A stretch of 22,824 nt of DNA from a virus. The notes beneath the pieces are model-generated. The model made no database searches. It saw only the letters and a program-made list of their open reading frames with translations, and was not told the DNA's origin. The stretch spans positions 1 to 22,824 of IMG/VR virus record IMGVR_UViG_3300043449_001016; one strand, written 5' to 3'. A program made the position numbers and the translations under genes. This document shows positions 3 through 22,295 of the stretch, piece after piece. Numbering within the stretch: the first letter of the stretch is position 1; each line of letters opens with the position of its first letter.

Positions 3-437
3 GGTCGTTCGTCTAAGTTCCCTATTATCGTAGGGTGTGCGGGTTCGGCTAGGCTCGATAACCTGATAGTGTCAAGTGCTAAAAATTTCGAGGCGGCTGA
101 GACACCTTTTGAGGTTGCTGATTTGATTAAGAAGGCTATTGCGTTAGACGGATGGAAAGAGGAAAAGGATGATGGAGGCGAACCGCCTTCTTATTCGGTT
201 GATGTCTTGATTATCTTTGAAAAGAATCTTTATCGTATTGGTTCTGATTTGTCCGTAACAGAGATACAAGACTTTCAGTTTGTAGCCGTAGGCAGTGGCG
301 AACCTTATTGTCTAGGGGCGGCTTACGGATGTAAAAACAAGAAACCTAAAGAAATGATTAGAACGGCTTTATCCGCAGCAATTAAGTTTGACCCCAGTTG
401 TGGGGGCAAGATGTTTATAGGGGCTATTGAACGATGA
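3..437 (+). CDS. HslV/proteasome-like Ntn-hydrolase peptidase, 5' end missing
   Basis: The reading frame is open to the left edge, so the N-terminus, including any catalytic Thr, lies outside the window. The GTG at 69 is unlikely to be the start, because the in-frame codons before it encode the family-like stretch IIVGCAGSAR. About 144 residues are visible. Next come a strand-rich part (VDVLIIFEKNLYRIGSD) and the hallmark end FVAVGSGEPYCLGAAYG, then a helix ending KFDPSCGGKMFIG. This layout matches phage proteins annotated as HslV-like peptidase subunits. In bacteria HslV works with the HslU unfoldase; no such partner is visible here. It overlaps the next gene by ATGA. A role in head maturation or host protein turnover is only inference. 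Confidence 0.75.
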   Translation, partial: GRSSKFPIIVGCAGSARLDNLIVSSAKNFEAAETPFEVADLIKKAIALDGWKEEKDDGGEPPSYSVDVLIIFEKNLYRIGSDLSVTEIQDFQFVAVGSGEPYCLGAAYGCKNKKPKEMIRTALSAAIKFDPSCGGKMFIGAIER

Positions 438-1715: not shown

Positions 1716-2158
1716 GCCAACCTCAATCGACAGAAGTATGGGACACCCATAAACCCAAAGGTGGTTTTGGAGTCGAAATGACTCCAGAACAGTTTGAAGT
1801 TTTGTCTTCTAAGATGAATTTCGTTACAGAAGAAACGGCCCGCAGAGAAATCGCTGTATCCGAATCCCTACAAGAACTCAAGCAAATAGAAGCAGTGAGG
1901 TCGTATGCTTCTTTTGTTAAAGATATTACGACCAGCATTCAAACATTAAGCACGTTACCTAACACGGAGATAGCCATAGGCGAACTCTTGCAATCCCTGC
2001 ACAAGGTTACGGAAACATTTAATCCCAGCGGAGAATTAAACTTTGAGAGCAAAACCTTATCGCTTCAAACTGACAAAAAAACAATTGCTACGCATAAGAC
2101 AATTAGTTTACAAGATGAATACTACTCCGCACAATTCATCGAGGAAGAAAATGGCTGA
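1712..2158 (+). CDS. hypothetical protein upstream of terS
   Basis: This 148-residue protein starts in an ATGA overlap, with AAGGAG at 1701-1706. The N-terminal part has PKGGFGVEMTPEQFEVL (15-31). The middle (about 40-105) is predicted by eye to be helical, with possible coiled-coil character (ESLQELKQIEAVRSYASFV). The C-terminal third is polar and ends in EEENG. No enzyme motif, cysteine pair, membrane segment or HTH is visible. Its last codons contain the GAGGAAG that serves as ribosome site for the small terminase gene, which it overlaps by 8 bases. The position suggests expression with the packaging genes, but the function is unknown. Confidence 0.6.
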   Translation: MSQPQSTEVWDTHKPKGGFGVEMTPEQFEVLSSKMNFVTEETARREIAVSESLQELKQIEAVRSYASFVKDITTSIQTLSTLPNTEIAIGELLQSLHKVTETFNPSGELNFESKTLSLQTDKKTIATHKTISLQDEYYSAQFIEEENG

Positions 2159-2759
2159 AACAAGCGTAAACGCTTATAAGGCTCAGTTAGACAAAATGCG
2201 TAGAGATGCCAACGCAGAGGAATGGAATATCAACGGTTCTGTTCTAAGTCGTTCTGATGTAATGTTTAAGGTCTGCGATTGGGTTGCGAGTGGAAATCAA
2301 CTTAAACTATTTTGCGATCAGGCGGGCGCACCAAGTGTTGGCACTATTTATAAATGGTTTAAGAACTACTTAGAGTTTGAAAAAGATTTTCGTTCAGCCG
2401 AAGAGGCATCGGGTCATATCCTTGCCGAAACTGCTTTAGCCGAAGTCATTCACCTAGAAGATTCTGAAAACGTTTCTGTAGTAAAACTTCGTTATGATGC
2501 CCTTACGAGGCGTGCAGCGCAAATGAATCAAAGGTTTCAAGACAAGCAGGTATATAAACAAGAACAAGATATTGTGTCCGTATCTGATGATGAATTAAGG
2601 CGCAGGAGAGACGAATTATTCATCAGGGTTAAAGAAGAATTACGTAGCGAAGGCTGGATTCCTCCTGCTAACGAAATAGATATAAGTGTTGAAAACAGTG
2701 AAGTTACAGAAGAAACCGAATCCGATGAAATAGATAAACCTAATGATAACAGCACTTAA
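2151..2759 (+). CDS. terS: terminase small subunit (Sf6/P22-style)
   Basis: The start is the ATG at 2151 with GAGGAAG at 2141-2147. The frame is open further upstream, but that part overlaps the previous gene. The 202-residue protein has an N-terminal helix-turn-helix at about 49-75 (LKLFCDQAGAPSVGTIYKWF), followed by EFEKDFRSAEEASGHILAET. This is the typical pattern of Sf6-type small terminases: an HTH, then a helix with acidic and Arg residues that takes part in ring assembly. A long charged helix follows (DDELRRRRDELFIRVKEEL, 146-164), then an acidic tail. It would recognise phage DNA and load it on the large subunit. It lies next to terL, but a minus-strand gene separates the two, which is unusual. 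Confidence 0.82.
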   Translation: MAETSVNAYKAQLDKMRRDANAEEWNINGSVLSRSDVMFKVCDWVASGNQLKLFCDQAGAPSVGTIYKWFKNYLEFEKDFRSAEEASGHILAETALAEVIHLEDSENVSVVKLRYDALTRRAAQMNQRFQDKQVYKQEQDIVSVSDDELRRRRDELFIRVKEELRSEGWIPPANEIDISVENSEVTEETESDEIDKPNDNST

Positions 2760-2761
2760 AC

Positions 2762-2789
2762 AAAAAAGGAGTCCGAAGACTCCCTTTTC
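2762..2789. terminator. bidirectional rho-independent terminator
   Basis: Stem GGAGTC (2768-2773), loop CGAA, stem GACTCC (2778-2783). It is flanked by A6 on the left and CTTTTC on the right. Read on the minus strand it is GGAGTC-TTCG-GACTCC followed by six T, with a C(UUCG)G-type loop, which is a textbook terminator for the minus-strand gene. On the plus strand it is followed only by CTTTTC, so it may end terS transcription less efficiently. Confidence 0.8.
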
Positions 2790-2796
2790 GTTACAT

Positions 2797-2817
2797 CAAA
2801 AAGGCTTATTCGGCCTT
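2797..2817 (-). terminator. secondary hairpin overlapping the minus-strand stop codon
   Basis: AAGGC (2801-2805) and GCCTT (2813-2817) can pair around a seven-base loop that contains the stop codon of the minus-strand gene. On the minus strand the hairpin runs into five T. It is a weaker five-pair stem and would form a tandem with the stronger terminator about ten bases further on. Confidence 0.4.
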
Positions 2818-3036
2818 AGCGGTGTAGCCATTGGTTTTATAAGCAGAACCCGTAGCGGATTTGCCCATATCAACTTCGGCTTTAAAAGAAGCGAACTCGG
2901 GTCGAGCCGATTGGCCGCCACCTTCACCGTCAGAAGTTTCCTTCATCAAGGCTTCAGGGCTTGCACCTTCAACTACTTTGATGGTGTTTTTGCCAAACTC
3001 AACGGGGAGTCCTGCCATTTTTTTCTCAAGAGACAT
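2806..3036 (-). CDS. small minus-strand protein between terS and terL, moron-like
   Basis: This 76-residue gene runs against all its neighbours. Its ATG (complement of 3034-3036) has GAGG (complement of 3043-3046) six bases upstream, a strong promoter further up and tandem terminators right after the stop. The protein starts MSLEKKMAGLPVEFGKN, has a short beta-like part (TIKVV), then a Gly/Ser/Ala/Lys-rich, probably disordered stretch (SDGEGGGQSARPEF, about 35-48) ending SAYKTNGYTAKAE. There is no membrane segment, cysteine or HTH. A hand count gives about 49% GC for 2821-3040, against 33-47% in sampled lines of the flanking genes, which is suggestive but not decisive. The family is not recognised. 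The unit has the layout of a moron; overlapping plus-strand frames lack such signals. Confidence 0.72.
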   Translation of the reverse strand: MSLEKKMAGLPVEFGKNTIKVVEGASPEALMKETSDGEGGGQSARPEFASFKAEVDMGKSATGSAYKTNGYTAKAE

Positions 3037-3082
3037 TTCGTACCTCGTATTTGGTTAAGAGTGCCACTCCATACCCAAGTAA

Positions 3083-3110
3083 ATCATAACATAGGAGTTA
3101 TATGAGTCAA
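3083..3110 (-). promoter_or_regulatory. sigma70-type promoter of the minus-strand gene
   Basis: Read on the minus strand: TTGACT (complement of 3105-3110), 16 bases, then TATGAT (complement of 3083-3088). The spacer ends in TGT, which gives an extended -10 (TGn). Ten of twelve hexamer bases match consensus. The start of transcription would be near 3076, leaving a leader of about 40 bases before the ATG. The -35 lies in the second and third codons of terL and the spacer covers the terL ribosome site. Confidence 0.7.
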
Positions 3111-4484
3111 TGGTCGGAATTGGAAAAGATTGAAATGGAACTTTCTCGCAGAGAACGGGAAAGCAAACTAAAGAACTTTAAACCCTATCCTAAGCAACTA
3201 GAGTTTATGAACGACAAACACAAAGTTGTGGCTCTCTTTGGGGGTAATCAGTCAGGTAAAACTACGGTTGGTTCTGCCTTTTGTGCCTATCATTTGACGG
3301 GAGAATACCCCTCTTGGTACAAAGGTATCAAATTTGACAAGCCCGTAACGGTTTGGGTTGCAGGAGAGTCCTCTACCCGTGTCCGAGATACCCTTCAAGA
3401 AAAACTATTTGGCCCATTAGGCGAGTGGGGAACGGGTTTAATACCCAAACAAGCCATTGTTGGCGAACCAATACGCAAAGGTGGCATCCCACACGCCATA
3501 GATATAGCAAGAGTTAGGCACAAAACAGGTGGAACAAGTATAATTCAGTTCTTTTCTTACGACCAAGGGCGAGAAAAGTTTCAAGGGAGTACGGTAGACC
3601 TTGTTTGGTGTGATGAAGAACCCCCTGAAGACATCTATAAAGAGGCCAAAATGCGTACTATAGCCGTTTCAGGGTATGTTTTCCTAACATTCACCCCTTT
3701 AAGGGGTATAACGCCCCTATGCGATGAAATGATAGGTAATAAAGACGATCTTTATGGAGTACATTACCTAACTTGGGATGATGTCACCCACTTATCTGAA
3801 GTAGACAAGCAAATGCAGGTTGCGGGGCTGGGCCCCCACGAAATAGAAAGCCGTAAATACGGAAAACCGAGTATTGGTTCGGGTAAAATTTATCAATTCG
3901 ATGAATCCGAATATACGGTAAGCGATTTTACGATTCATCCTAAGTGGAGAACCGTTGCGGGTCTTGATGTGGGTATATCGCATCCAACTTGTGCGGTTAA
4001 ATTGTCTATTGATGACGAATCGGGTGTTGGATATATCCACCAAGAGTATAAAATGTCAGGTGAAACTTCTGTTTATCACGCTTATAAACTAAAAGATTGG
4101 CCCTGTAGGTTTTCTATTGACCCAAATTCTCGTCAGCGTTCTATTGCAAGTGGCGACTCTCCCTACAAAATGTTTCAAGACATTATGGGAGATGATCGGT
4201 TGATGGCTGCAGACAATAGGGTAAACTATGGTATATCACTAATTAGAGCAAAAATCGCTACCGAGCAACTCTACATTTTCGAGTCTTGCGTAGAAACCTT
4301 AAAGGAAATGCGTTTGTATCGCTTCAAAGAAAACGGAGACATACACAAAGTTGATGACGATTTGATGGATGCGTTGAGGTATTGTGTTACGGCTTGGGAC
4401 AAAGCGGTATCACCCCCTGAATTAAATCGAAGATATGAGTTAAACTATGAATGGAAGCCAACTAATAAAAGAATCGGTTACTAG
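3102..4484 (+). CDS. terL: terminase large subunit (packaging ATPase and nuclease)
   Basis: This 460-residue motor protein pumps DNA into the procapsid and cuts it. ATPase domain: Walker A GGNQSGKT at 47-54 and Walker B VDLVWCDEEP at 165-174 with the D-E-E cluster, then the coupling motif TFTPL at 196-200. RNase H-like nuclease domain: GLDVG at 287-291 (Asp289), SIDPN at 338-342 (Asp340) and VDDDLMDALRY at 417-427 supply the expected acidic residues. The N-terminal PKQLEFMNDKHKVVALFGG is also typical. The length is normal. The start is set by AGGAG at 3093-3097. The product works with the small subunit and the portal. Its ribosome site coincides with the minus-strand promoter, and no plus-strand promoter was found just upstream. 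Confidence 0.93.
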   Translation: MSQWSELEKIEMELSRRERESKLKNFKPYPKQLEFMNDKHKVVALFGGNQSGKTTVGSAFCAYHLTGEYPSWYKGIKFDKPVTVWVAGESSTRVRDTLQEKLFGPLGEWGTGLIPKQAIVGEPIRKGGIPHAIDIARVRHKTGGTSIIQFFSYDQGREKFQGSTVDLVWCDEEPPEDIYKEAKMRTIAVSGYVFLTFTPLRGITPLCDEMIGNKDDLYGVHYLTWDDVTHLSEVDKQMQVAGLGPHEIESRKYGKPSIGSGKIYQFDESEYTVSDFTIHPKWRTVAGLDVGISHPTCAVKLSIDDESGVGYIHQEYKMSGETSVYHAYKLKDWPCRFSIDPNSRQRSIASGDSPYKMFQDIMGDDRLMAADNRVNYGISLIRAKIATEQLYIFESCVETLKEMRLYRFKENGDIHKVDDDLMDALRYCVTAWDKAVSPPELNRRYELNYEWKPTNKRIGY

Positions 4485-4492
4485 GAGATATA

Positions 4493-6748
4493 ATGGGTCA
4501 AGAATTTGGAACTATTGAAGCGGGTAAACCATCCAGTATCACTACAGGTTTATCTAAATTAGTTCAAGATAAGTTTACTTGGTGCAGGAACTTACGCTTT
4601 TTACAGCAAGAGAAATGGCTATCTGCAAAGATGGCTTTTGACGGAATTGATTACTACGGTGCAGATGAAGAAGCCAATCAATCTGGCATTTATTTAAACT
4701 TTACCCAGATGAAAACGATGGCTGCTTATTCTCAAATTATGTCTACAATGACTGGCCCGCAGGGTTACCCTTGGTATGTTAAACCAACGCCTGATCCAGA
4801 ATTGGTTAGGTTAGGGTTTACCAATACGCAAGAAGCCGAAAAAAATCCATTACTGCCTCCAAATTTAAAAGAAAATATCTTAAAAGCCAATATTGCTTGT
4901 GATGGTATGCGAGTAAAGATTGCAGACAACCTAGAAGAAACACACTGGGAAGAGAAGTTTGCAAGAGGTGTTTTGGATATGGTTATCCTTGGTACTATGG
5001 TTGTCAAAGGGCCTTTCTCTGCACCGCCAGACCCAAAGAAATGGATGCTTGTAGACGAAGAAGAAGAAGGTGGCGTTATAAACAAGATTAAAGATGCTAT
5101 TGGCATAATAAAGCCTAAAAAGCAAACCTATAAACTTGTATCCTCAGATGAAGACCCACGACCTGACTTTGAAATTGTTTCTCCATTTGAGTTTTATCCA
5201 GACCCGTCTGCTTTTTGCATTGAAGATTGTATGTGGGTGGTTCATCGTAGGGTATTGAACAAATCACAACTTGTTGATTTGGCAAAAGTAGATGGCTTTA
5301 GACCTGAAGAAATCGAAAAATGTTTAGATGCTTACCCCAAGGGAAACTGGACGGCAGAGACTTGGGAATCCCGTGTCTACGCCCTCAACCAAAGGCAAAC
5401 TCCTTTATCAAGGGGTGATCGTTTCGTAGCCCTCGAATATTGGGGTTATGTTTCGGGTAGAGAGTTGGAACTTGCAGGCGTAGATATGCCCAATGGTTAC
5501 GACAAACACAAGCAATATATGGCTTGTATTTGGTCGATTGGTTCTTACTGTATTAAAATTGCTATAAGTCAACTTGAGAAACCTTACATTCCATTTTTGG
5601 TTTGCCCTTACGAAAAAGTTTTGTACAACGTATGGGGTCGTGGTATTCCAGAAAAGATGCGTGACCCACAGGACATCGTTAATGCGGCTGCAAGAGCAAT
5701 GGTCGATAATATGGGTATTGCCGCAGGGCCTCAAGTCATTTACGATACAAGCCGAATGATTAATGGATTTAAGTTTGAAGGTATTAAGCCTTGGGGTGTT
5801 TGGCCGCTTAAGACCCTTGAGGGTATTACGACTCCTCCCGTTACATTTGTTCCAGTTCCAAGTATCCTGAATGAACTAAAACTTCTTCAAGATAACTTTA
5901 AGGTATTTATTCAAGAAGTAACCTCAATGCCCGATATGACTTCTGGTTTTTCTAACTCAGCATCTGGACAGCACAACCGTACCGCTTCGGGTATGAGTAT
6001 GCTATTTAATGCTGCAACAACTTACACGAAGGGTGTTGTATTTAACATTGATAACAATATTACTAAACCTATGATTAGGCGCATATACGATTGGAATATG
6101 CAGTATTCCAACGATATGATGATTAAGGGCGACTTTAGCATAAGTGCTGGCGGTGTTACACGACTTATGCAAAACGAAAGCAAAGAAGGTTCTATGCAGC
6201 AACTTGTTCAGTTGGTGCAAGACCCAGACTTTAAACCGTATATTAATAAGATTGCTATCCTTAAGGAATGGGTTAGAATACACGGATTTGACGATACGGA
6301 TATGGTTAACTCCGATGAACAAGCCGATCAAATCAAACAGAATATGATGCAACAAGAAGCGCAAATGGAACACCTAAAGAACGTTCCAAGACTTCGTGCT
6401 GAAATGCCCAGACCTGATGCATTACTTGAAATGCTTCAAAACACAGAGCCTTCAAGCCCTGCGTATCCTGCCATTTACGAACAAGTTGCTTTGTCTCAAG
6501 ATGCGATGACTCCATCTATGAAATTAGCCTTAGATATTATTAAGGCACAGACACTTGCCGCATCTCAACAGCAACTGCAATTGCCACAGGAACTTTCAAC
6601 ACAAGGACAACCGCTTCCTACGGATTTCCAACGAGCAGGTGGTTTCCCAGAAACTGTTCCAGAACAAGTTCCAAATGCGCCTCAACAAGGTATGCCTATG
6701 CCACCGCAAGGTATGCCTATGCCACCTCAACAAGGTATGCCACAATAG
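4493..6748 (+). CDS. portal protein (P22-like)
   Basis: This 751-residue protein starts eight bases after terL with AGGAG at 4483-4487. It forms the dodecameric ring at one vertex, through which terminase packs DNA and to which the tail attaches. Family-like parts are GRGIPEKMRDPQDIVNAAAR (382-401), NMGIAAGPQVIYD (406-418) and SGQHNRTASGMSML (491-504), the last just before the long helices of the stem and crown. The length suits P22-type portals of about 720-760 residues. The last 27 or so residues are a Gln/Gly/Met/Pro repeat encoded by a 21-base tandem repeat, a low-complexity tail beyond the barrel region. A stem-loop surrounds the stop codon. Confidence 0.9.
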   Translation: MGQEFGTIEAGKPSSITTGLSKLVQDKFTWCRNLRFLQQEKWLSAKMAFDGIDYYGADEEANQSGIYLNFTQMKTMAAYSQIMSTMTGPQGYPWYVKPTPDPELVRLGFTNTQEAEKNPLLPPNLKENILKANIACDGMRVKIADNLEETHWEEKFARGVLDMVILGTMVVKGPFSAPPDPKKWMLVDEEEEGGVINKIKDAIGIIKPKKQTYKLVSSDEDPRPDFEIVSPFEFYPDPSAFCIEDCMWVVHRRVLNKSQLVDLAKVDGFRPEEIEKCLDAYPKGNWTAETWESRVYALNQRQTPLSRGDRFVALEYWGYVSGRELELAGVDMPNGYDKHKQYMACIWSIGSYCIKIAISQLEKPYIPFLVCPYEKVLYNVWGRGIPEKMRDPQDIVNAAARAMVDNMGIAAGPQVIYDTSRMINGFKFEGIKPWGVWPLKTLEGITTPPVTFVPVPSILNELKLLQDNFKVFIQEVTSMPDMTSGFSNSASGQHNRTASGMSMLFNAATTYTKGVVFNIDNNITKPMIRRIYDWNMQYSNDMMIKGDFSISAGGVTRLMQNESKEGSMQQLVQLVQDPDFKPYINKIAILKEWVRIHGFDDTDMVNSDEQADQIKQNMMQQEAQMEHLKNVPRLRAEMPRPDALLEMLQNTEPSSPAYPAIYEQVALSQDAMTPSMKLALDIIKAQTLAASQQQLQLPQELSTQGQPLPTDFQRAGGFPETVPEQVPNAPQQGMPMPPQGMPMPPQQGMPQ
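6686..6745 (+). repeat. 21-base tandem repeat coding the portal C-terminal tail
   Basis: Unit 1 is 6686-6706 and unit 2 is 6707-6727, identical except for the last base. After one extra CAA codon, a shortened third copy lies at 6731-6745. The repeat encodes QGMPMPP-type units. Such in-frame repeats change copy number by slippage, so length may vary between related phages. Confidence 0.85.
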
Positions 6749-6758
6749 TTGTGGTATA
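6736..6758 (+). other. stem-loop around the portal stop codon
   Basis: TATGCCACAA (6736-6745) pairs with TTGTGGTATA (6749-6758) in a ten-pair stem with one G-U pair. The three-base loop is the TAG stop codon itself. No T run follows, so a terminator is unlikely. It may affect mRNA stability or the start of the next gene, which has a weak TTG start. Confidence 0.5.
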
Positions 6759-6783
6759 GTATTAAGTATTGGGAACACACAAC

Positions 6784-7071
6784 TTGAACAATAAAGTTAA
6801 GTTACTAGAAGAAATTAAACCAATTGTAAATAGCCCCTATTGGGCTAAGTTACAAATTTTAATTGCTGATATGATTGCTGATAAGCGAGATTCCCTAGAG
6901 AGAGTCTCTACCTTTGAAGAAGTGCTGAAGGCTCGTGGAAGTATTGAAGCCCTACGAGAGATAAGCGAACTAGATAAAGCCATCAATTTTATTGATGAGG
7001 CCACTAAGCCACAATTCCGTGACCGTGAGCCCAAATTATATGACCAAGCCACTAGGCCGTCAGGGAGTTAG
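6784..7071 (+). CDS. small helical protein between portal and scaffold
   Basis: No ATG is available near the start of this frame. TTG at 6784 has GGGA at 6771-6774 nine bases before it and gives 95 residues. A TTG at 6769 (100 residues) has no ribosome site. The protein is charged and mainly helical: KVKLLEEIKPIVNSPYWAKL, then KRDSLERVSTFEEVLKARG and SIEALREISELDKAINFID. It ends in a polar tail. No domain is recognised. Small ORFs between portal and scaffold are common in such phages; it could be an assembly or packaging accessory, but this is position only. The gene ends two bases before the scaffold start codon. Confidence 0.6.
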   Translation: MNNKVKLLEEIKPIVNSPYWAKLQILIADMIADKRDSLERVSTFEEVLKARGSIEALREISELDKAINFIDEATKPQFRDREPKLYDQATRPSGS

Positions 7072-7073
7072 AT

Positions 7074-8126
7074 ATGCCAAGTAAACGTGACGAAATCCGT
7101 GAAAACGCTAAAAGAGCCGATACTCTTGCACAGCAGTTAGCGGCAGAAGGCGGTTTGTTTCCATCTGAAGGTGCAAAATCTAAGATGTTTACAAATCAAG
7201 TGCCAGACTTTTCTGCCCCGACCACTGAATCTGTAGCCGAAGTTACATCGGAAACACAAGTAGAACCTCAAACAACACAAGCAGCAACAAGTCCGAGTGC
7301 CAACGAAACCCAATCTGCTGAAACCATTGAGGATGTTCTTGTATCTGAAAAGCAATACAAGGCTGCTGTTAAGGCAATGAATGATGCACAGCGTAAGGCT
7401 GCTGATGCTGAAAAATTGTTGAACCAACAGAATGTAGAACACGAAAGATTTAAAGCCGAGTTACAGGCTATCAAACAACAAATGAACCAACCCACACAGG
7501 TAAATAATACTTCTCTTGTAAGCCAAGCATTAGAAAGATGGAAAGAAGAATATCCCGATACGGTTAATATTAATCTTGAAACTGCAAATGCCGTTAAACA
7601 AGAAGTCCAACAAATGATTGATTCAAGACTTTACAGCGTAGAATCGCAACTTAAAACATCCCGTGAAGAGCAAGAACACTTTAAAATTCTTGAGCAAGTA
7701 CGGTTACGAGATGAAAAGATTAAGCAACATCATAATGACTATGATGACGTTCGATTATCTGACGACTTTAAAACTTGGGTTTATGGCGAAGCACCATCTA
7801 TTTACCAAGGCGTGTACGAAGGAACCATCCCCTTTAACGACAGGGATGCTGTAAAAATTATGGATGATTTTAAAACTTACAAAGGTTCAGTTGGTTCAAA
7901 TAAGCCTGTCGTTTCACGGCCCAAACCAAGCGCAGCCGAAGTTTCTCCAAAGATTAACTCTGCTGTTAGTTCGGATATGGGTCAAACTATTGAAACTGAA
8001 TTTACTGCCGAAGACTTACAACGACTTCCCTATATGATTAACAGAATGAAAAACCCTGCTGAACGCAAGGCGTTAATGGATAGGGCTGATAAGTTTATGT
8101 CTAGGCAATTGTCAAAAACCAAATAA
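7074..8126 (+). CDS. scaffold-like head assembly protein
   Basis: This 350-residue protein sits between the portal and the coat gene with GGGAG at about 7063-7067. It is highly charged and Gln/Ala/Glu-rich. There is a flexible acidic part at about 45-90, a coiled-coil stretch at about 92-138 (YKAAVKAMNDAQRKAADAEK), another helical stretch at about 170-220 and a motif DDFKTWVYGEAPSIY at 230-244. A basic C-terminal helix (DKFMSRQLSKTK) resembles the coat-binding ends of scaffolds. No cysteine or catalytic motif is visible and no protease is fused. Known scaffolds guide coat assembly and leave the shell before or during packaging. The call rests on position and composition. Confidence 0.75.
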   Translation: MPSKRDEIRENAKRADTLAQQLAAEGGLFPSEGAKSKMFTNQVPDFSAPTTESVAEVTSETQVEPQTTQAATSPSANETQSAETIEDVLVSEKQYKAAVKAMNDAQRKAADAEKLLNQQNVEHERFKAELQAIKQQMNQPTQVNNTSLVSQALERWKEEYPDTVNINLETANAVKQEVQQMIDSRLYSVESQLKTSREEQEHFKILEQVRLRDEKIKQHHNDYDDVRLSDDFKTWVYGEAPSIYQGVYEGTIPFNDRDAVKIMDDFKTYKGSVGSNKPVVSRPKPSAAEVSPKINSAVSSDMGQTIETEFTAEDLQRLPYMINRMKNPAERKALMDRADKFMSRQLSKTK

Positions 8127-8141
8127 CTTAAGGAAACTTAA

Positions 8142-8582
8142 ATGGCAACTTATAATTTAACCACAGGCATTGATGGTTTATATCAAAAAGGAAGTACAGA
8201 ACTTACTACCTTTGCGAAAGAAATCGACTTTGCCAACTTTTCGGGCACGGGTAGTGCAGGGGCACAAAATGCTACTGCTGCTATCATCACGATTCCCGCA
8301 GGTTTTTACATCGTTGGTTTAACCACGGTTGTATTAACAGCAGGAACTGCCGCAAAAACAATCACTGTTGAACTCTCAACAGGAACCGATCTTCAAGCCG
8401 CAACCGCTATTGATGCTGCTGCTGGAACGGGCGTATCCACTGCGTTAAATACTTATTTAACAGCAGGTGATACCATCCAAGTCAAACTTTTGGATGCTTC
8501 TACTGTTGCAGGAAAAATGGGTATTACGGTTGTTGGATTTCAAACTCCTCTAACCTACACCAATTCAACTTACGCTTTTTAA
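8142..8582 (+). CDS. probable capsid decoration or accessory head protein
   Basis: This 146-residue protein starts after AAGGA at 8130-8134 and lies directly before the coat gene. It is rich in Thr, Ala and Gly and reads as a beta-sandwich: alternating strands such as AAIITIPAGFYIVGLTTVVL (about 46-65), KTITVELSTGTDL and DTIQVKLLDAS, with a hydrophobic C-terminal strand KMGITVVGF. It lacks charge-rich helices, cysteines and a signal peptide. Proteins of this size and fold type beside coat genes are often head decoration or stabilising proteins. I do not recognise a named family, so the role is inferred from position and predicted fold. Confidence 0.6.
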   Translation: MATYNLTTGIDGLYQKGSTELTTFAKEIDFANFSGTGSAGAQNATAAIITIPAGFYIVGLTTVVLTAGTAAKTITVELSTGTDLQAATAIDAAAGTGVSTALNTYLTAGDTIQVKLLDASTVAGKMGITVVGFQTPLTYTNSTYAF

Positions 8583-8610
8583 TCAATAACTAATTTAAAG
8601 GAATTTTAAA

Positions 8611-9492
8611 ATGGGTTTACAAGTTACACGAAGTGGTGCGAACCTTTCGGCTGGTGTATTTGTTCCGCAGATTTACTCCGCTAAACTGCAAGACAAATTC
8701 TACGCTGCCTCTGTCGTTCCCGCCATTGCAAATCACAATTGGGAAGGCGAAATTATGGCCTTTGGCGATACCGTCAATATCCGTAAAGTCCCTACCATTT
8801 CTATTCAAAACTATTCGGTGAATAGTGCTATCAATTATCAAGATGTGTCTGATGAACAGATTCAATTGCTCATCAACCAAGCGAAGTATTATGCTTTCAA
8901 GGTTGATTACATTGATGACTACCAGTCAGATATTGCTTTGATTGATACCATCACTCAAGATGCTGCTATGCAAATGGCAGTCACCGTTGATAAGTCCGTG
9001 CTTCAATCAGTTTATGCTGATGCGGGTACGACTCTTACGACTGTTAATCTTGGTTCTTTATCTACCGACACTTACATCCGACCTCTCCTCGAAGCGGGAC
9101 AGGCTCTTGATGAAAAGAATGTTCCTCGTGACGGTAAACGATGGGCTGTTATTAACCCAGAGTATGCTCGTTACCTGAAACTGTCTGACTTAAAACAAGT
9201 CCTTATTACTGGCGATGATGAATCTCCTCTCCGTAACGGGTTTGTGGGTCAGATTGACGGGATGAACGTTTATGTTTCCAACAACGTACTCGATGCTGTC
9301 GGTTCTACCTCTGGTTCACCTAGCCAATTGCTAGTGGGCCACGAGTCAGCACTGACTTTTGCAAGTCAGTTTGTGAAACACGAAATGTTGCCCCTGCAGA
9401 ACACCTTCGGATACGGAATTAAAGGTCTACAAGTCTACGGATTTAAGACCGTTAAAGCCGATTCGTTGGTTTGTATCCCTGTCTATGTTTAA
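8611..9492 (+). CDS. major capsid protein (HK97 fold)
   Basis: This 293-residue protein starts after AAAGGA. The N-terminal region shows the pattern common in environmental phage coat proteins: FVPQIYSAKLQDKFY (17-31), VVPAIANHNWEGEIMAFGDT (35-54), VNIRKVPTISIQNY (55-68), then KYYAFKVDYIDDYQSD (92-107), and a long helix (ITQDAAMQMAVTVDKSVL). The later part (DGKRWAVINPEYARYL, GFVGQIDGMNVYVSNNV) fits the P and A domains of the HK97 fold. There is no long N-terminal delta domain, which fits a separate scaffold. It forms the icosahedral shell. Two stem-loops follow the stop codon. Confidence 0.88.
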   Translation: MGLQVTRSGANLSAGVFVPQIYSAKLQDKFYAASVVPAIANHNWEGEIMAFGDTVNIRKVPTISIQNYSVNSAINYQDVSDEQIQLLINQAKYYAFKVDYIDDYQSDIALIDTITQDAAMQMAVTVDKSVLQSVYADAGTTLTTVNLGSLSTDTYIRPLLEAGQALDEKNVPRDGKRWAVINPEYARYLKLSDLKQVLITGDDESPLRNGFVGQIDGMNVYVSNNVLDAVGSTSGSPSQLLVGHESALTFASQFVKHEMLPLQNTFGYGIKGLQVYGFKTVKADSLVCIPVYV

Positions 9493-9511
9493 TATTTTTT
9501 AATATTCATAG
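9483..9511 (+). other. AT-rich stem-loop overlapping the coat stop codon
   Basis: CTATG (9483-9487) pairs with CATAG (9507-9511), and AATATT (9491-9496) with AATATT (9501-9506) around a TTTT loop, leaving a three-base bulge. The coat stop codon (9490-9492) lies inside. It may help protect the coat message; it is not a terminator by itself. Confidence 0.4.
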
Positions 9512-9528
9512 CAGTCTCAAACGCAACA

Positions 9529-9566
9529 GGAGTTAATGGGGGGTTTCGGCCCCCCATCTCTCCTTT
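9529..9566 (+). terminator. probable rho-independent terminator after the coat gene
   Basis: ATGGGGGG (9536-9543) pairs with CCCCCCAT (9550-9557) around TTTCGG, and GGAG (9529-9532) can pair with CTCC (9560-9563) after a small internal loop. Only three T follow, so termination is probably partial. Such a partial stop after the coat gene would raise coat message over the tail genes. Confidence 0.65.
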
Positions 9567-9583
9567 ACCTAATGGAGATATAA

Positions 9584-9892
9584 ATGGCCAAACAACTCGT
9601 AAAGATCATCAATACAGAAACAGGAAAGGTTTTTGAGGGTTCTCACCTTCAAAACGCAAATCTCATAGCCCACGCTGAAAACAATAAAGAGACCTTCGAC
9701 TTGGTGTATATGGACATTAAAGAAGAAGATTCAGGTTCCACCTACACTGTTGCCAAACTTATGGGCAAGAGTGTCAAGGAACTACAAAAGTTAGCCACCG
9801 AAAAGAACATCACCTTTGGTGTTCCATTCACACATATGACTAAAGCAGAAATTGCTAATGTTATTATAGAAAGTACGAAGGGTATTCTATAA
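9584..9892 (+). CDS. small protein with HeH/SAP-like C-terminal motif
   Basis: This 102-residue protein starts after GGAGA, just beyond the coat terminator. The N-terminal half has short strands (QLVKIINTETGKVFEGS, then a part ending FDLVYMDIKEED). The C-terminal part at about 59-96 (KSVKELQKLATEKNITFGVP, then MTKAEIANVII) matches the helix-extended loop-helix pattern of SAP, HeH or Rho-N domains, which often bind nucleic acid. Small proteins with such a motif are seen after coat genes in tailed phages, where they may join the head-completion set. Binding to packaged DNA or to the connector is only inference. It ends ten bases before the next gene. Confidence 0.6.
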   Translation: MAKQLVKIINTETGKVFEGSHLQNANLIAHAENNKETFDLVYMDIKEEDSGSTYTVAKLMGKSVKELQKLATEKNITFGVPFTHMTKAEIANVIIESTKGIL

Positions 9893-19364: not shown

Positions 19365-22295
19365 ATGGGCGTACCGTTTAAAGCAAAAAATGGCTTAGAT
19401 GCCAATAGTAATAAAATTGTTAATGTTGCTAATCCGACTACCTCACAAGATGCGGCAACTAAACTTTATGTAGATAATGCTGTAGGAACGGGTTTACCTT
19501 CTCAGACAGGCAATAGCGGAAAGTTTCTAACCACTGACGCAACAACGGCTTCTTGGAGTTTGGTTCCCGTTGCGGGCATTAGTGCTACGGGCACACCGAG
19601 TGCAACCACCTACCTTCGTGGTGATGGAACTTGGGCTACGGTAGCAGCAGGTGGCGTTACCTCAGTAACAGGCACTTCTCCAGTTGCTTCTAGTGGCGGC
19701 TCAACTCCAGCCATCAGCCTCATCTCAGGCTACGGTGACACACAAAATCCCTACGCCTCTAAGACGGCTAATTATGTTCTTGCAGCACCCAGCGGTAGTG
19801 CGGGTGTCCCAACGTTTAGAGCGATTGTGGCTGCGGATATTCCTACGCTTAATCAAAACACCACAGGTTCTGCAGGTTCAGCCCCTGCTTCGGGAATTAC
19901 AGGGTCAACCTTAGCAAGTGGAGTGACCGCTTCATCGCTAACGAGTGTGGGAACGCTAGGTTCTTTAACGGTTTCAGGTAACGCTACCTTTGATACCAAT
20001 ACGCTGTTTGTTGATGCAACAAACGATAGGGTGGGTGTAGGAACAACCAGTCCTTATAACGCTTTAGAAATATCGGGTTCATCTTCGAGGCTTGGGCTTA
20101 ACAACGGTGGCGGGGCTTCACGCAAGGCACTCCTAATTGAGCCTTTAGGTTATGGTGGAAATACTTACGCAAGATTAGAAAGTTACGATTACGGAACTTC
20201 GACAGGCGGGATTTTAGCCCTCAATGTTACGGGCGGTAATGTAGGTATAGGAACTGCCTCGCCTAGTGCGAAATTAGAATCCGTATCTACCACATCAGGT
20301 GCTGGTGGATGGTATATTGCTGCTCAATTATCAGCGGCAAATTATCCTGCATTAAGATTTGCAGCAACCACACCAAACAAATACTCAAGCATTGGAAATA
20401 ACGGTGATGGAAGCCTATACTTTATGGTTAATGGCACATCGAGTTCCATCGGGACAGAAGCAGCCGTCATAACTGCATCAGGTAATGTAGGTATAGGAAC
20501 AAGTAGTCCATATAATTTACTTGAAGCAACTAAATCAGGTGGTGCAACTATTTCCATTGCTAATTCCTCATCAGGTGCAGGAATTATGTATGGCAAATTA
20601 TCATTTTATTCTACTGCTGCGGCAGGTGCTTATTCAGAATATGGTGGTCAAATCCGTTCGTATTCAGGCATAGGAATTGACTATGGTGATTTACGCTTTT
20701 ATACAGGAAATGGTGCTACAACTGCTGAGCGAGTCCGTATAGACTCTAGCGGTAATGTCGGTATCGGGACTAGTAGTCCAGAAGCGAAACTTGATGTCTT
20801 TGGCAGTAGTTTTAATCTCAGGCCAACTAATACAAATTCCATAGGTCATTTTAATGTAACCAATGGCGTGGGTTCTCCTGTAAGTGTGAGACTTGCTTTT
20901 GGAACAGATAACACAGGTTGGCAGATGCGGTTTGCCAAGAATTATCAAGGAACTTATACGGATTATATGACCATTACGGACAATGGTAATGTCGGTATAG
21001 GAACTGCCTCGCCTAGCCAAAAATTGTCTGTTTCAAATAACATTATATTGGGAACAGCCGTTTCGGGTGCTGGAACTCCCGCCTACATTGATACAGGTAT
21101 TAATTATTCAAATGCAACGACTAGGGATAAGTGCAAGATTTATCTATACAACTCAGGAACAGAGCAATATGGATTCAGCGTAGGTTCTAGTGCGGATATC
21201 CAATATCATTCAAATGGTATTCACGATTTTTATATTGCTAACAGTTTGGCTTTAAGAATTAACTCTAGCGGTAATTTGGGAGTAGGAACTGCGACTCCAC
21301 AAGCAAAACTTTCTGTAACAGGAACAAGTGGTGCATTTAATGATATTGGCATATTTCAAGTAACTTCAGGAACAGGTGCTAGTGCAAATTGGAAACTAAC
21401 TTTTGGAGTAAATGACGCAGGTTACACTTGGATTCAGTCTGTGCTTCCTGCAACTGATCTTAAGCCCTTAGCAATAAATCCAAGTGGCGGAAATGTAAGT
21501 ATTAACACAACTACTTTTGGTTATGCTCTTAATGTTGGCGGAACAATCAACTCCACAGGTGCAATGTCACAAGCGGGTAACCAAGTCCTGCACGCTGGAA
21601 ATTACTCATCTTATGCAATCGCTAGGGGTGGCGATACAGTCGATGGAGTTATTCTTTTTAGAAGTAATAAGGGTAATGGTGTATACCTTTCTAATACCAG
21701 CAATATGCAACTGCAAGCCTATTCTAGTGACGGAGGAACAGCCGCAATGTCGTTCCATCGTGCAGGCCTATACGCTGTAAATATGGGACTAGACCCTGAT
21801 AATGTATTTAGAATCGGTGGTTGGTCTGCACCTGCAAATAGATTACAACTTGATATGTCTGGTAATTTAACAGTTGCGGGTTATGTTAGCGGAACAGAGA
21901 TTTATTCAGGTGGTTGGTTTAGAAACTATAATTCAGGCACAGGATTGTATAATGTTGCAACAGGAAATCATTTTTACTCAGATGGTCAGTATTGGAACGC
22001 TGCCTATAGCGGAACACAAGGAATTCGGTTTAGAAACGGACACGCTGGGGGGATTTTAGGTTACCTCTATGCTGAAACAAGTGGTTATTTTGGATTATTA
22101 ACCAACCAAGGTGCTTGGTCGCTAATGAGCAGGCCTAATGGCGCAGGAATCACTTTTTACGGAACTGAAATCGCTGTTGACCAAACTCTGTATGTTCACG
22201 AAGCAGCCAACAAAACACGAGTACCTAGAACCTTTGTTCAAACAACTGCCCCAAGCGGAACCTTGACAAATGGCGATATTTGGATACAATTCTAA
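19365..22295 (+). CDS. large tail fibre with GNVGIGT-type repeats
   Basis: This 976-residue protein starts after AGGGA at about 19350-19354. The N-terminus (FKAKNGLDANSNKIVNVANP, then AATKLYVDNAV) matches typical fibre attachment segments. The middle part holds at least seven units of the pattern G-N-V-G-I-G-T-x-S-P-x-x-K-L-x-V, beginning near residues 223, 291, 373, 463, 541, 636 and 709, separated by variable beta stretches. The end has HAGNYSSYAIARGGDTVDG (about 743-761) and TFVQTTAPSGTLTNGDIWIQ. Many fibres with these repeats end in a Peptidase_S74 chaperone; none is seen here. It is probably the main receptor-binding fibre. The repeats favour recombination. Confidence 0.82.
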   Translation: MGVPFKAKNGLDANSNKIVNVANPTTSQDAATKLYVDNAVGTGLPSQTGNSGKFLTTDATTASWSLVPVAGISATGTPSATTYLRGDGTWATVAAGGVTSVTGTSPVASSGGSTPAISLISGYGDTQNPYASKTANYVLAAPSGSAGVPTFRAIVAADIPTLNQNTTGSAGSAPASGITGSTLASGVTASSLTSVGTLGSLTVSGNATFDTNTLFVDATNDRVGVGTTSPYNALEISGSSSRLGLNNGGGASRKALLIEPLGYGGNTYARLESYDYGTSTGGILALNVTGGNVGIGTASPSAKLESVSTTSGAGGWYIAAQLSAANYPALRFAATTPNKYSSIGNNGDGSLYFMVNGTSSSIGTEAAVITASGNVGIGTSSPYNLLEATKSGGATISIANSSSGAGIMYGKLSFYSTAAAGAYSEYGGQIRSYSGIGIDYGDLRFYTGNGATTAERVRIDSSGNVGIGTSSPEAKLDVFGSSFNLRPTNTNSIGHFNVTNGVGSPVSVRLAFGTDNTGWQMRFAKNYQGTYTDYMTITDNGNVGIGTASPSQKLSVSNNIILGTAVSGAGTPAYIDTGINYSNATTRDKCKIYLYNSGTEQYGFSVGSSADIQYHSNGIHDFYIANSLALRINSSGNLGVGTATPQAKLSVTGTSGAFNDIGIFQVTSGTGASANWKLTFGVNDAGYTWIQSVLPATDLKPLAINPSGGNVSINTTTFGYALNVGGTINSTGAMSQAGNQVLHAGNYSSYAIARGGDTVDGVILFRSNKGNGVYLSNTSNMQLQAYSSDGGTAAMSFHRAGLYAVNMGLDPDNVFRIGGWSAPANRLQLDMSGNLTVAGYVSGTEIYSGGWFRNYNSGTGLYNVATGNHFYSDGQYWNAAYSGTQGIRFRNGHAGGILGYLYAETSGYFGLLTNQGAWSLMSRPNGAGITFYGTEIAVDQTLYVHEAANKTRVPRTFVQTTAPSGTLTNGDIWIQF
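20031..21536 (+). repeat. dispersed in-frame repeats of the large fibre gene
   Basis: Seven copies of a DNA unit related to GGTAATGTAGGTATAGGAAC begin near 20031, 20235, 20481, 20751, 20985, 21270 and 21489. The copies at 20235 and 20985 are nearly identical for about 35 bases, including the following GCCTCGCCTAG. The units encode GNVGIGT-like motifs at intervals of about 70-95 residues. Confidence 0.8.

Follow-up and report, generated by a model that had tools for sequence, protein, structure and literature searches.

A small gene, m76, lies between the two terminase genes of an uncultured tailed phage and is read against them. Codon-level comparison with relatives leaves us nearly certain that it is a real protein-coding gene under purifying selection. 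We put at about even the chance that m76 forms a fixed, moron-like early cassette encoding a small host-directed or regulatory protein, although its function can be approached only by inference.

A minus-strand gene in the gap between terS and terL

The window analyzed here, the whole stretch of 22,824 nucleotides from IMG/VR record IMGVR_UViG_3300043449_001016, is the left part of the phage's late region. Its other genes are all on the plus strand and encode an HslV-like protein, small genes, TerS, TerL, an SU10/P22-like portal, the major head protein, and tail genes. The HslV-type peptidase-like protein (positions 3-437, plus strand; PHROG 1040, E=6e-10) is encoded by the first late-operon gene in all relatives read, and a 976-aa tail-fiber-like gene contains at least five copies of the repeat GGTAATGT(A/C)GGTAT(A/C)GG(A/G)AC at 20000-21340 (plus strand). 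The gap that holds m76 extends from the terS stop at 2759 to the terL start at 3102.

2151-2759, plus strand: terS, Sf6-type small terminase subunit (PF20901, 3e-14), convergent neighbor of m76
2806-3036, minus strand: m76, 76 codons (protein P0001), recognized from its ORF, homologs, and purifying selection
3102-4484, plus strand: terL, large terminase subunit (PF03237, 7e-21), divergent neighbor of m76

The initial annotation described m76 as opposed to every other gene, which is correct inside the window but not phage-wide, since early genes of relatives are also on the minus strand. In L130, the replication region (YqaJ/RecE-like exonuclease and RusA) occupies the minus strand, divergent from the late operon. 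The orientation of m76 therefore appears to be that of the early genes, as judged from relatives rather than from the window's own genome. A further observation concerns the relative L127, whose early region contains several adjacent paralogs beginning MKVSELI(K/E)xLS (5597-7010, plus strand). The same contig encodes a weakly amidoligase-like protein of 557 aa (7094-8764, plus strand; PHROG 7469, E=0.0012) and a class-II glutamine amidotransferase-like protein (8793-9803, plus strand; GATase_6, E=1.5e-6; PHROG 4736, 2.6e-23), both with similar counterparts in L129; these two neighbors are possibly an amide-bond modification pair.

Because ORF length is not distinctive in the window, where many spurious minus-strand ORFs of 70-130 aa make length alone weak evidence, the gene status of m76 rests on comparison. 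Between the window and L014, the m76 frame has 28.5 synonymous and 27.5 nonsynonymous changes (w=0.19), distributed over the three codon positions as 9/15/32 (32 of 56 at the third). Between L019 and L021, the corresponding values are 17 synonymous and 3 nonsynonymous changes (w=0.025) and 1/2/17 by position (17 of 20 at the third). Opposite the 76-aa form, the plus frame with low w contains 2-3 stops, while the stop-free plus frame has w>2. A chance reading frame, either within non-coding sequence or opposite a plus-strand gene, would be in keeping with the abundance of minus ORFs of such length and with a promoter that, taken alone, is at chance level. However, the minus frame shows third-position bias with w well below 1, the best-conserved plus frame is interrupted by stops in the long form, and a homologous ORF occupies the same site in all relatives. 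Because the codon-level evidence favors the minus frame, we regard this reading as refuted, with a negligible chance of being correct. The 76-codon ORF proposed from the window alone was thus borne out by codon-level selection in relatives: homologs exist, and no plus-strand frame is equally conserved.

The m76 protein is rich in small and charged residues. All relatives have the C-terminal motif GxAYxTxGYxAxxE, and the long and short forms of the protein have about 35 C-terminal residues in common (E-x5-A-x5-K-x3-G-x-A-x2-T-x-GY-x-A). Structure prediction with AlphaFold gave no confident fold for either form (pLDDT 55 and 58); the protein is short and probably disordered, with the reservation that these low pLDDT values came from shallow alignments.

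m76 is present throughout a clade and absent outside it

A protein search with the m76 product found six near-identical loci, and a search with TerL reached a wider clade (TerL 77-99% identical), which is a small group of uncultured, probably short-tailed phages. All 15 IMG/VR clade contigs that contain the terS-terL junction carry an m76 homolog, always on the minus strand; seven have a 76-aa form and eight a 42-47-aa form. A profile search for m76 among 15,948 ORFs from the retrieved loci found homologs, all of them clade members (E<1e-20), and no other ORF scored below E=6.

No m76 homolog was found in IMG/VR relatives at 33-40% TerL identity. These outgroups mostly have an ORF ending a few bases from terL; in a minority, the gap measures 50-270 nt. 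In this respect, the expectation that related phages would lack the unit and have terS and terL adjacent was borne out for most distant relatives at this identity. Likewise, none of seven annotated phages (H1, H5, H6, H7, H8, H11, and H20) has a minus-strand gene directly upstream of terL. Because m76 is absent from all outgroups, the distribution suggests that it was gained in the ancestor of the clade rather than lost elsewhere.

Searches of Pfam, NCBIfam, PHROGs, PDB, INPHARED (tblastn), and GTDB contigs gave no firm match to m76. The initial reader had not recognized the protein, and by these databases it is indeed a new family. The short form of L042 matches PHROG 33963 (54 positions, unknown function) weakly over residues 1-38 (E=0.0074), the L020 protein scores E=0.12, and the window protein has no match; membership of the short form in this PHROG is a lead only, too weak to assign. 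In a literature search by title, we recognized no minus-strand gene between terS and terL.

The gene has its own promoter, leader, and terminator

The following signals were assigned around m76.

3083-3110, minus strand: promoter, with -35-like TTGACT at 3110-3105 and extended -10 TGTTATGAT at 3091-3083
3037-3076, minus strand: leader of about 40 nt, its start site placed from the -10
3043-3046, minus strand: Shine-Dalgarno GAGG, 6 bases 5' of the ATG
2801-2817, minus strand: nearer hairpin, overlapping the m76 stop codon, in the closest relatives only
2762-2783, minus strand: distal intrinsic terminator, GGAGTC-TTCG-GACTCC then TTTTTT on the minus strand

The window promoter, TTGACT-16-TATGAT with TG before the -10, has 10 of 12 matches in a consensus scan, but such a scan of this single sequence found 2 sites versus 2.0 expected, which is chance level. 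The initial call of an extended -10 promoter was upheld by the TGnTAnnnT core, kept in 15/15 aligned rows. The -35 element matches well in the window (5/6) and in L009/L130 but poorly elsewhere and is not conserved, as expected for an extended -10 promoter. The leader and Shine-Dalgarno site that had been proposed also held up (GAGG or GGAG in relatives), and the leader contains a conserved (G)GCACTC at 3066-3059. Two further readings of the leader gained no support: a leader hairpin pairs in 90% of cells without compensatory change and is equaled by shuffles, and, against the motif as a repeated operator or phage-polymerase promoter, the full promoter-leader pattern has no second copy in the records of 13 relatives.

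Of the tandem terminators described initially, the distal one is conserved. All six pairs of its hairpin (2768-2783) are kept, with 60/60 cells pairing across 10 distinct sequences and compensatory changes at two pairs (G-C/A-U and U-A/C-G). The nearer hairpin is lost in L014 and beyond and is probably not a required terminator. A blastn comparison of the region with phages returned nothing but short terminator matches, which we take as chance similarity.

The distal hairpin folds at z=-3.8 on the minus strand and at z=-2.3 on the plus strand, where its tail, CTTTTCG, is weaker. A bidirectional hairpin, a transcript spanning the whole terS-terL gap, and the position of the terL start codon within the m76 promoter would all suit a unit that is mainly an antisense regulator, with a transcript of ~310 nt complementing terS-to-terL read-through and delaying terL until late. 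We consider this very unlikely. Selection acts on the amino acids (w 0.025-0.19), which argues against the earlier suggestion of antisense control of late genes as the main function; the dS of the short form is 1.08 in m76 versus 1.16 in terL (L019/L021), indicating no extra RNA-level constraint there; and the long and short forms differ in transcript length.

The m76 block was probably exchanged among close relatives

The GC content of m76 is 48.1%, against 41.5% for the window, and 3.6% of 231-nt windows are as high; the initial hand count was about 49%, at or above sampled flanking lines (33-47%). L014 gives similar values (48.5% versus 42.3%), while short-form relatives show no consistent excess (39.6-46.5% versus 39.6-43.8%). 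The gene falls within a block of high similarity whose flanks have diverged.

2739-3055, no strand assigned: near-identical block common to the window and L008, L009, L010, L011, and L026

Between the window and these five contigs, dS is 0.10-0.12 in m76 (0.10-0.15 over window-like pairs) versus 0.30-1.09 in terL and from 0.27 to saturation in terS. The dip recurs between L020 and L042 (0.24 versus 2.01), whereas the L019/L021 and window/L014 pairs show no comparable dip in m76. Because these two pairs lack the dip, exchange is a better account than general nucleotide constraint, and the data suggest that the m76 block was probably exchanged as a cassette by recombination among window-like members.

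The exchanged block also bears on whether the m76 protein is an accessory of packaging or head assembly, such as a modulator of TerS or TerL. Such a role would explain the fixed position at the terminase genes, which is invariant in 15/15 contigs, and both TerS and m76 vary within the clade. Against it, the block places the same m76 beside diverged TerS proteins (64-80% identical), so that m76 does not track TerS; the opposite strand and separate promoter imply that m76 would not be co-expressed with the terminase; and the outgroup terminases function without it. We regard a packaging role as possible but doubtful.

A structured RNA in relatives probably has the same type of promoter

Analysis of m76 led us to a conserved, structured phage RNA without an Rfam match. 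In relatives, outside the window, a conserved non-coding element of ~330 nt occupies the divergent region between the early genes and the HslV-like gene.

L130 10945-11291, L009 1162-1508, L008 1171-1523, L011 450-797, L014 2-343, minus strand: non-coding RNA
L019 1861-2187, L021 1835-2158, L017 285-612, L018 1151-1491, minus strand: non-coding RNA
L132 10668-10922, plus strand: non-coding RNA

Its consensus has 62 pairs in 10 helices, with 97.6% of cells pairing. Compensatory changes occur at 22 pairs, versus 9.2 ± 1.7 in shuffles (0/500 reach 22) and at most 4 in slid controls. No match was found in Rfam at E<=1 (L130, L131, and L132 run) or in INPHARED by blastn, and a conserved 18-mer of the element is, within IMG/VR, confined to the clade. 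The element is likely a new structured phage RNA, and it may be more novel than m76 itself.

The pattern TGnTAnnnT-N5-TGGG occurs in relatives mainly at two sites, before m76 and at the start of the RNA. A promoter type common to both is suggestive, given that the pattern was drawn up after both sites had been seen and that the relatives do not count as independent cases. We considered and rejected antisense pairing of the m76 leader (GGCACUCUU) with the RNA (AAGAGUGCC): the 9-nt match in window-like L009/L130 is broken by L008, and the changed leaders UUGCACUC and UGGUACUC have no matching change in the RNA. It is quite improbable, in our estimate, that m76 and the RNA form a two-transcript early regulon with one promoter type that jointly takes over or protects host machinery, for example, host RNA polymerase, RNA decay, or a defense system.

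Proposed role and comparison with known morons

Our preferred reading remains a moron-like cassette fixed in the clade. The sequences themselves show protein-level selection, a promoter core and a terminator that are both conserved, presence throughout the clade, absence from the outgroups, and, in window-like members, a dS that is low relative to the flanks. The cassette, one small gene served by a sigma70-type extended -10 promoter and a terminator of its own, would have been inserted between terS and terL in the clade ancestor and retained since. Because the non-coding RNA is preceded by the same promoter type, we propose that m76 is an early unit for the host polymerase: host RNA polymerase would read the extended -10 promoter early in infection, m76 would be transcribed early alongside the RNA, and the terminator would stop its mRNA before antisense entry into terS. 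Short, disordered early phage proteins often act through binding a host protein. The conserved C-terminal tail of the m76 protein may thus bind a host or phage partner and serve host takeover, anti-defense, or regulation; we found no functional homolog favoring host takeover above the other roles. Its constant presence, fixed position, and probable early expression make m76 a good candidate host-directed factor. The gene also adds a well-supported small-protein family to the short phage genes overlooked by annotation pipelines.

Morons are transcription units that work autonomously and have been inserted among core genes (PMC6316719, PMC2147016). Like them, the m76 unit is a single gene for a short unknown protein, with its own predicted promoter and terminator and signs of exchange, and it separates two genes that lie side by side in distant relatives. 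Unlike them, it does not come and go, and the conservation of its promoter core and the divergence into two length forms suggest that it has been in place for a long time. The anatomy of a self-contained minus-strand moron thus stands as first described, whereas the sense of the term as a recent, variable addition does not fit, with the unit in 15/15 contigs at TerL identity down to 79%. A sporadic moron, recent, variable among close relatives, and benefiting the lysogen, could likewise bring its own promoter and terminator, a GC content of 48% against 41.5%, probable cassette exchange among window-like members, and absence from outgroups. We nevertheless judge this reading unlikely: every clade contig with the junction has m76, the GC excess is missing in short-form relatives, we noticed neither an integrase nor a repressor in the window and in those early-region stretches that were read, and a TerL search of GTDB host contigs found no clade member and hence no prophage. 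We therefore favor a moron-like cassette that has become permanent in its lineage at a highly conserved junction. A parallel in layout is the oriR/genes 8-10 segment of SPP1, which is bracketed by transcription signals, interrupts the packaging/head array, and carries moron genes (PMC6316719). The m76 unit is similarly bracketed within its packaging/head array, but the SPP1 segment comprises three genes and an origin and the m76 unit one gene on the opposite strand.
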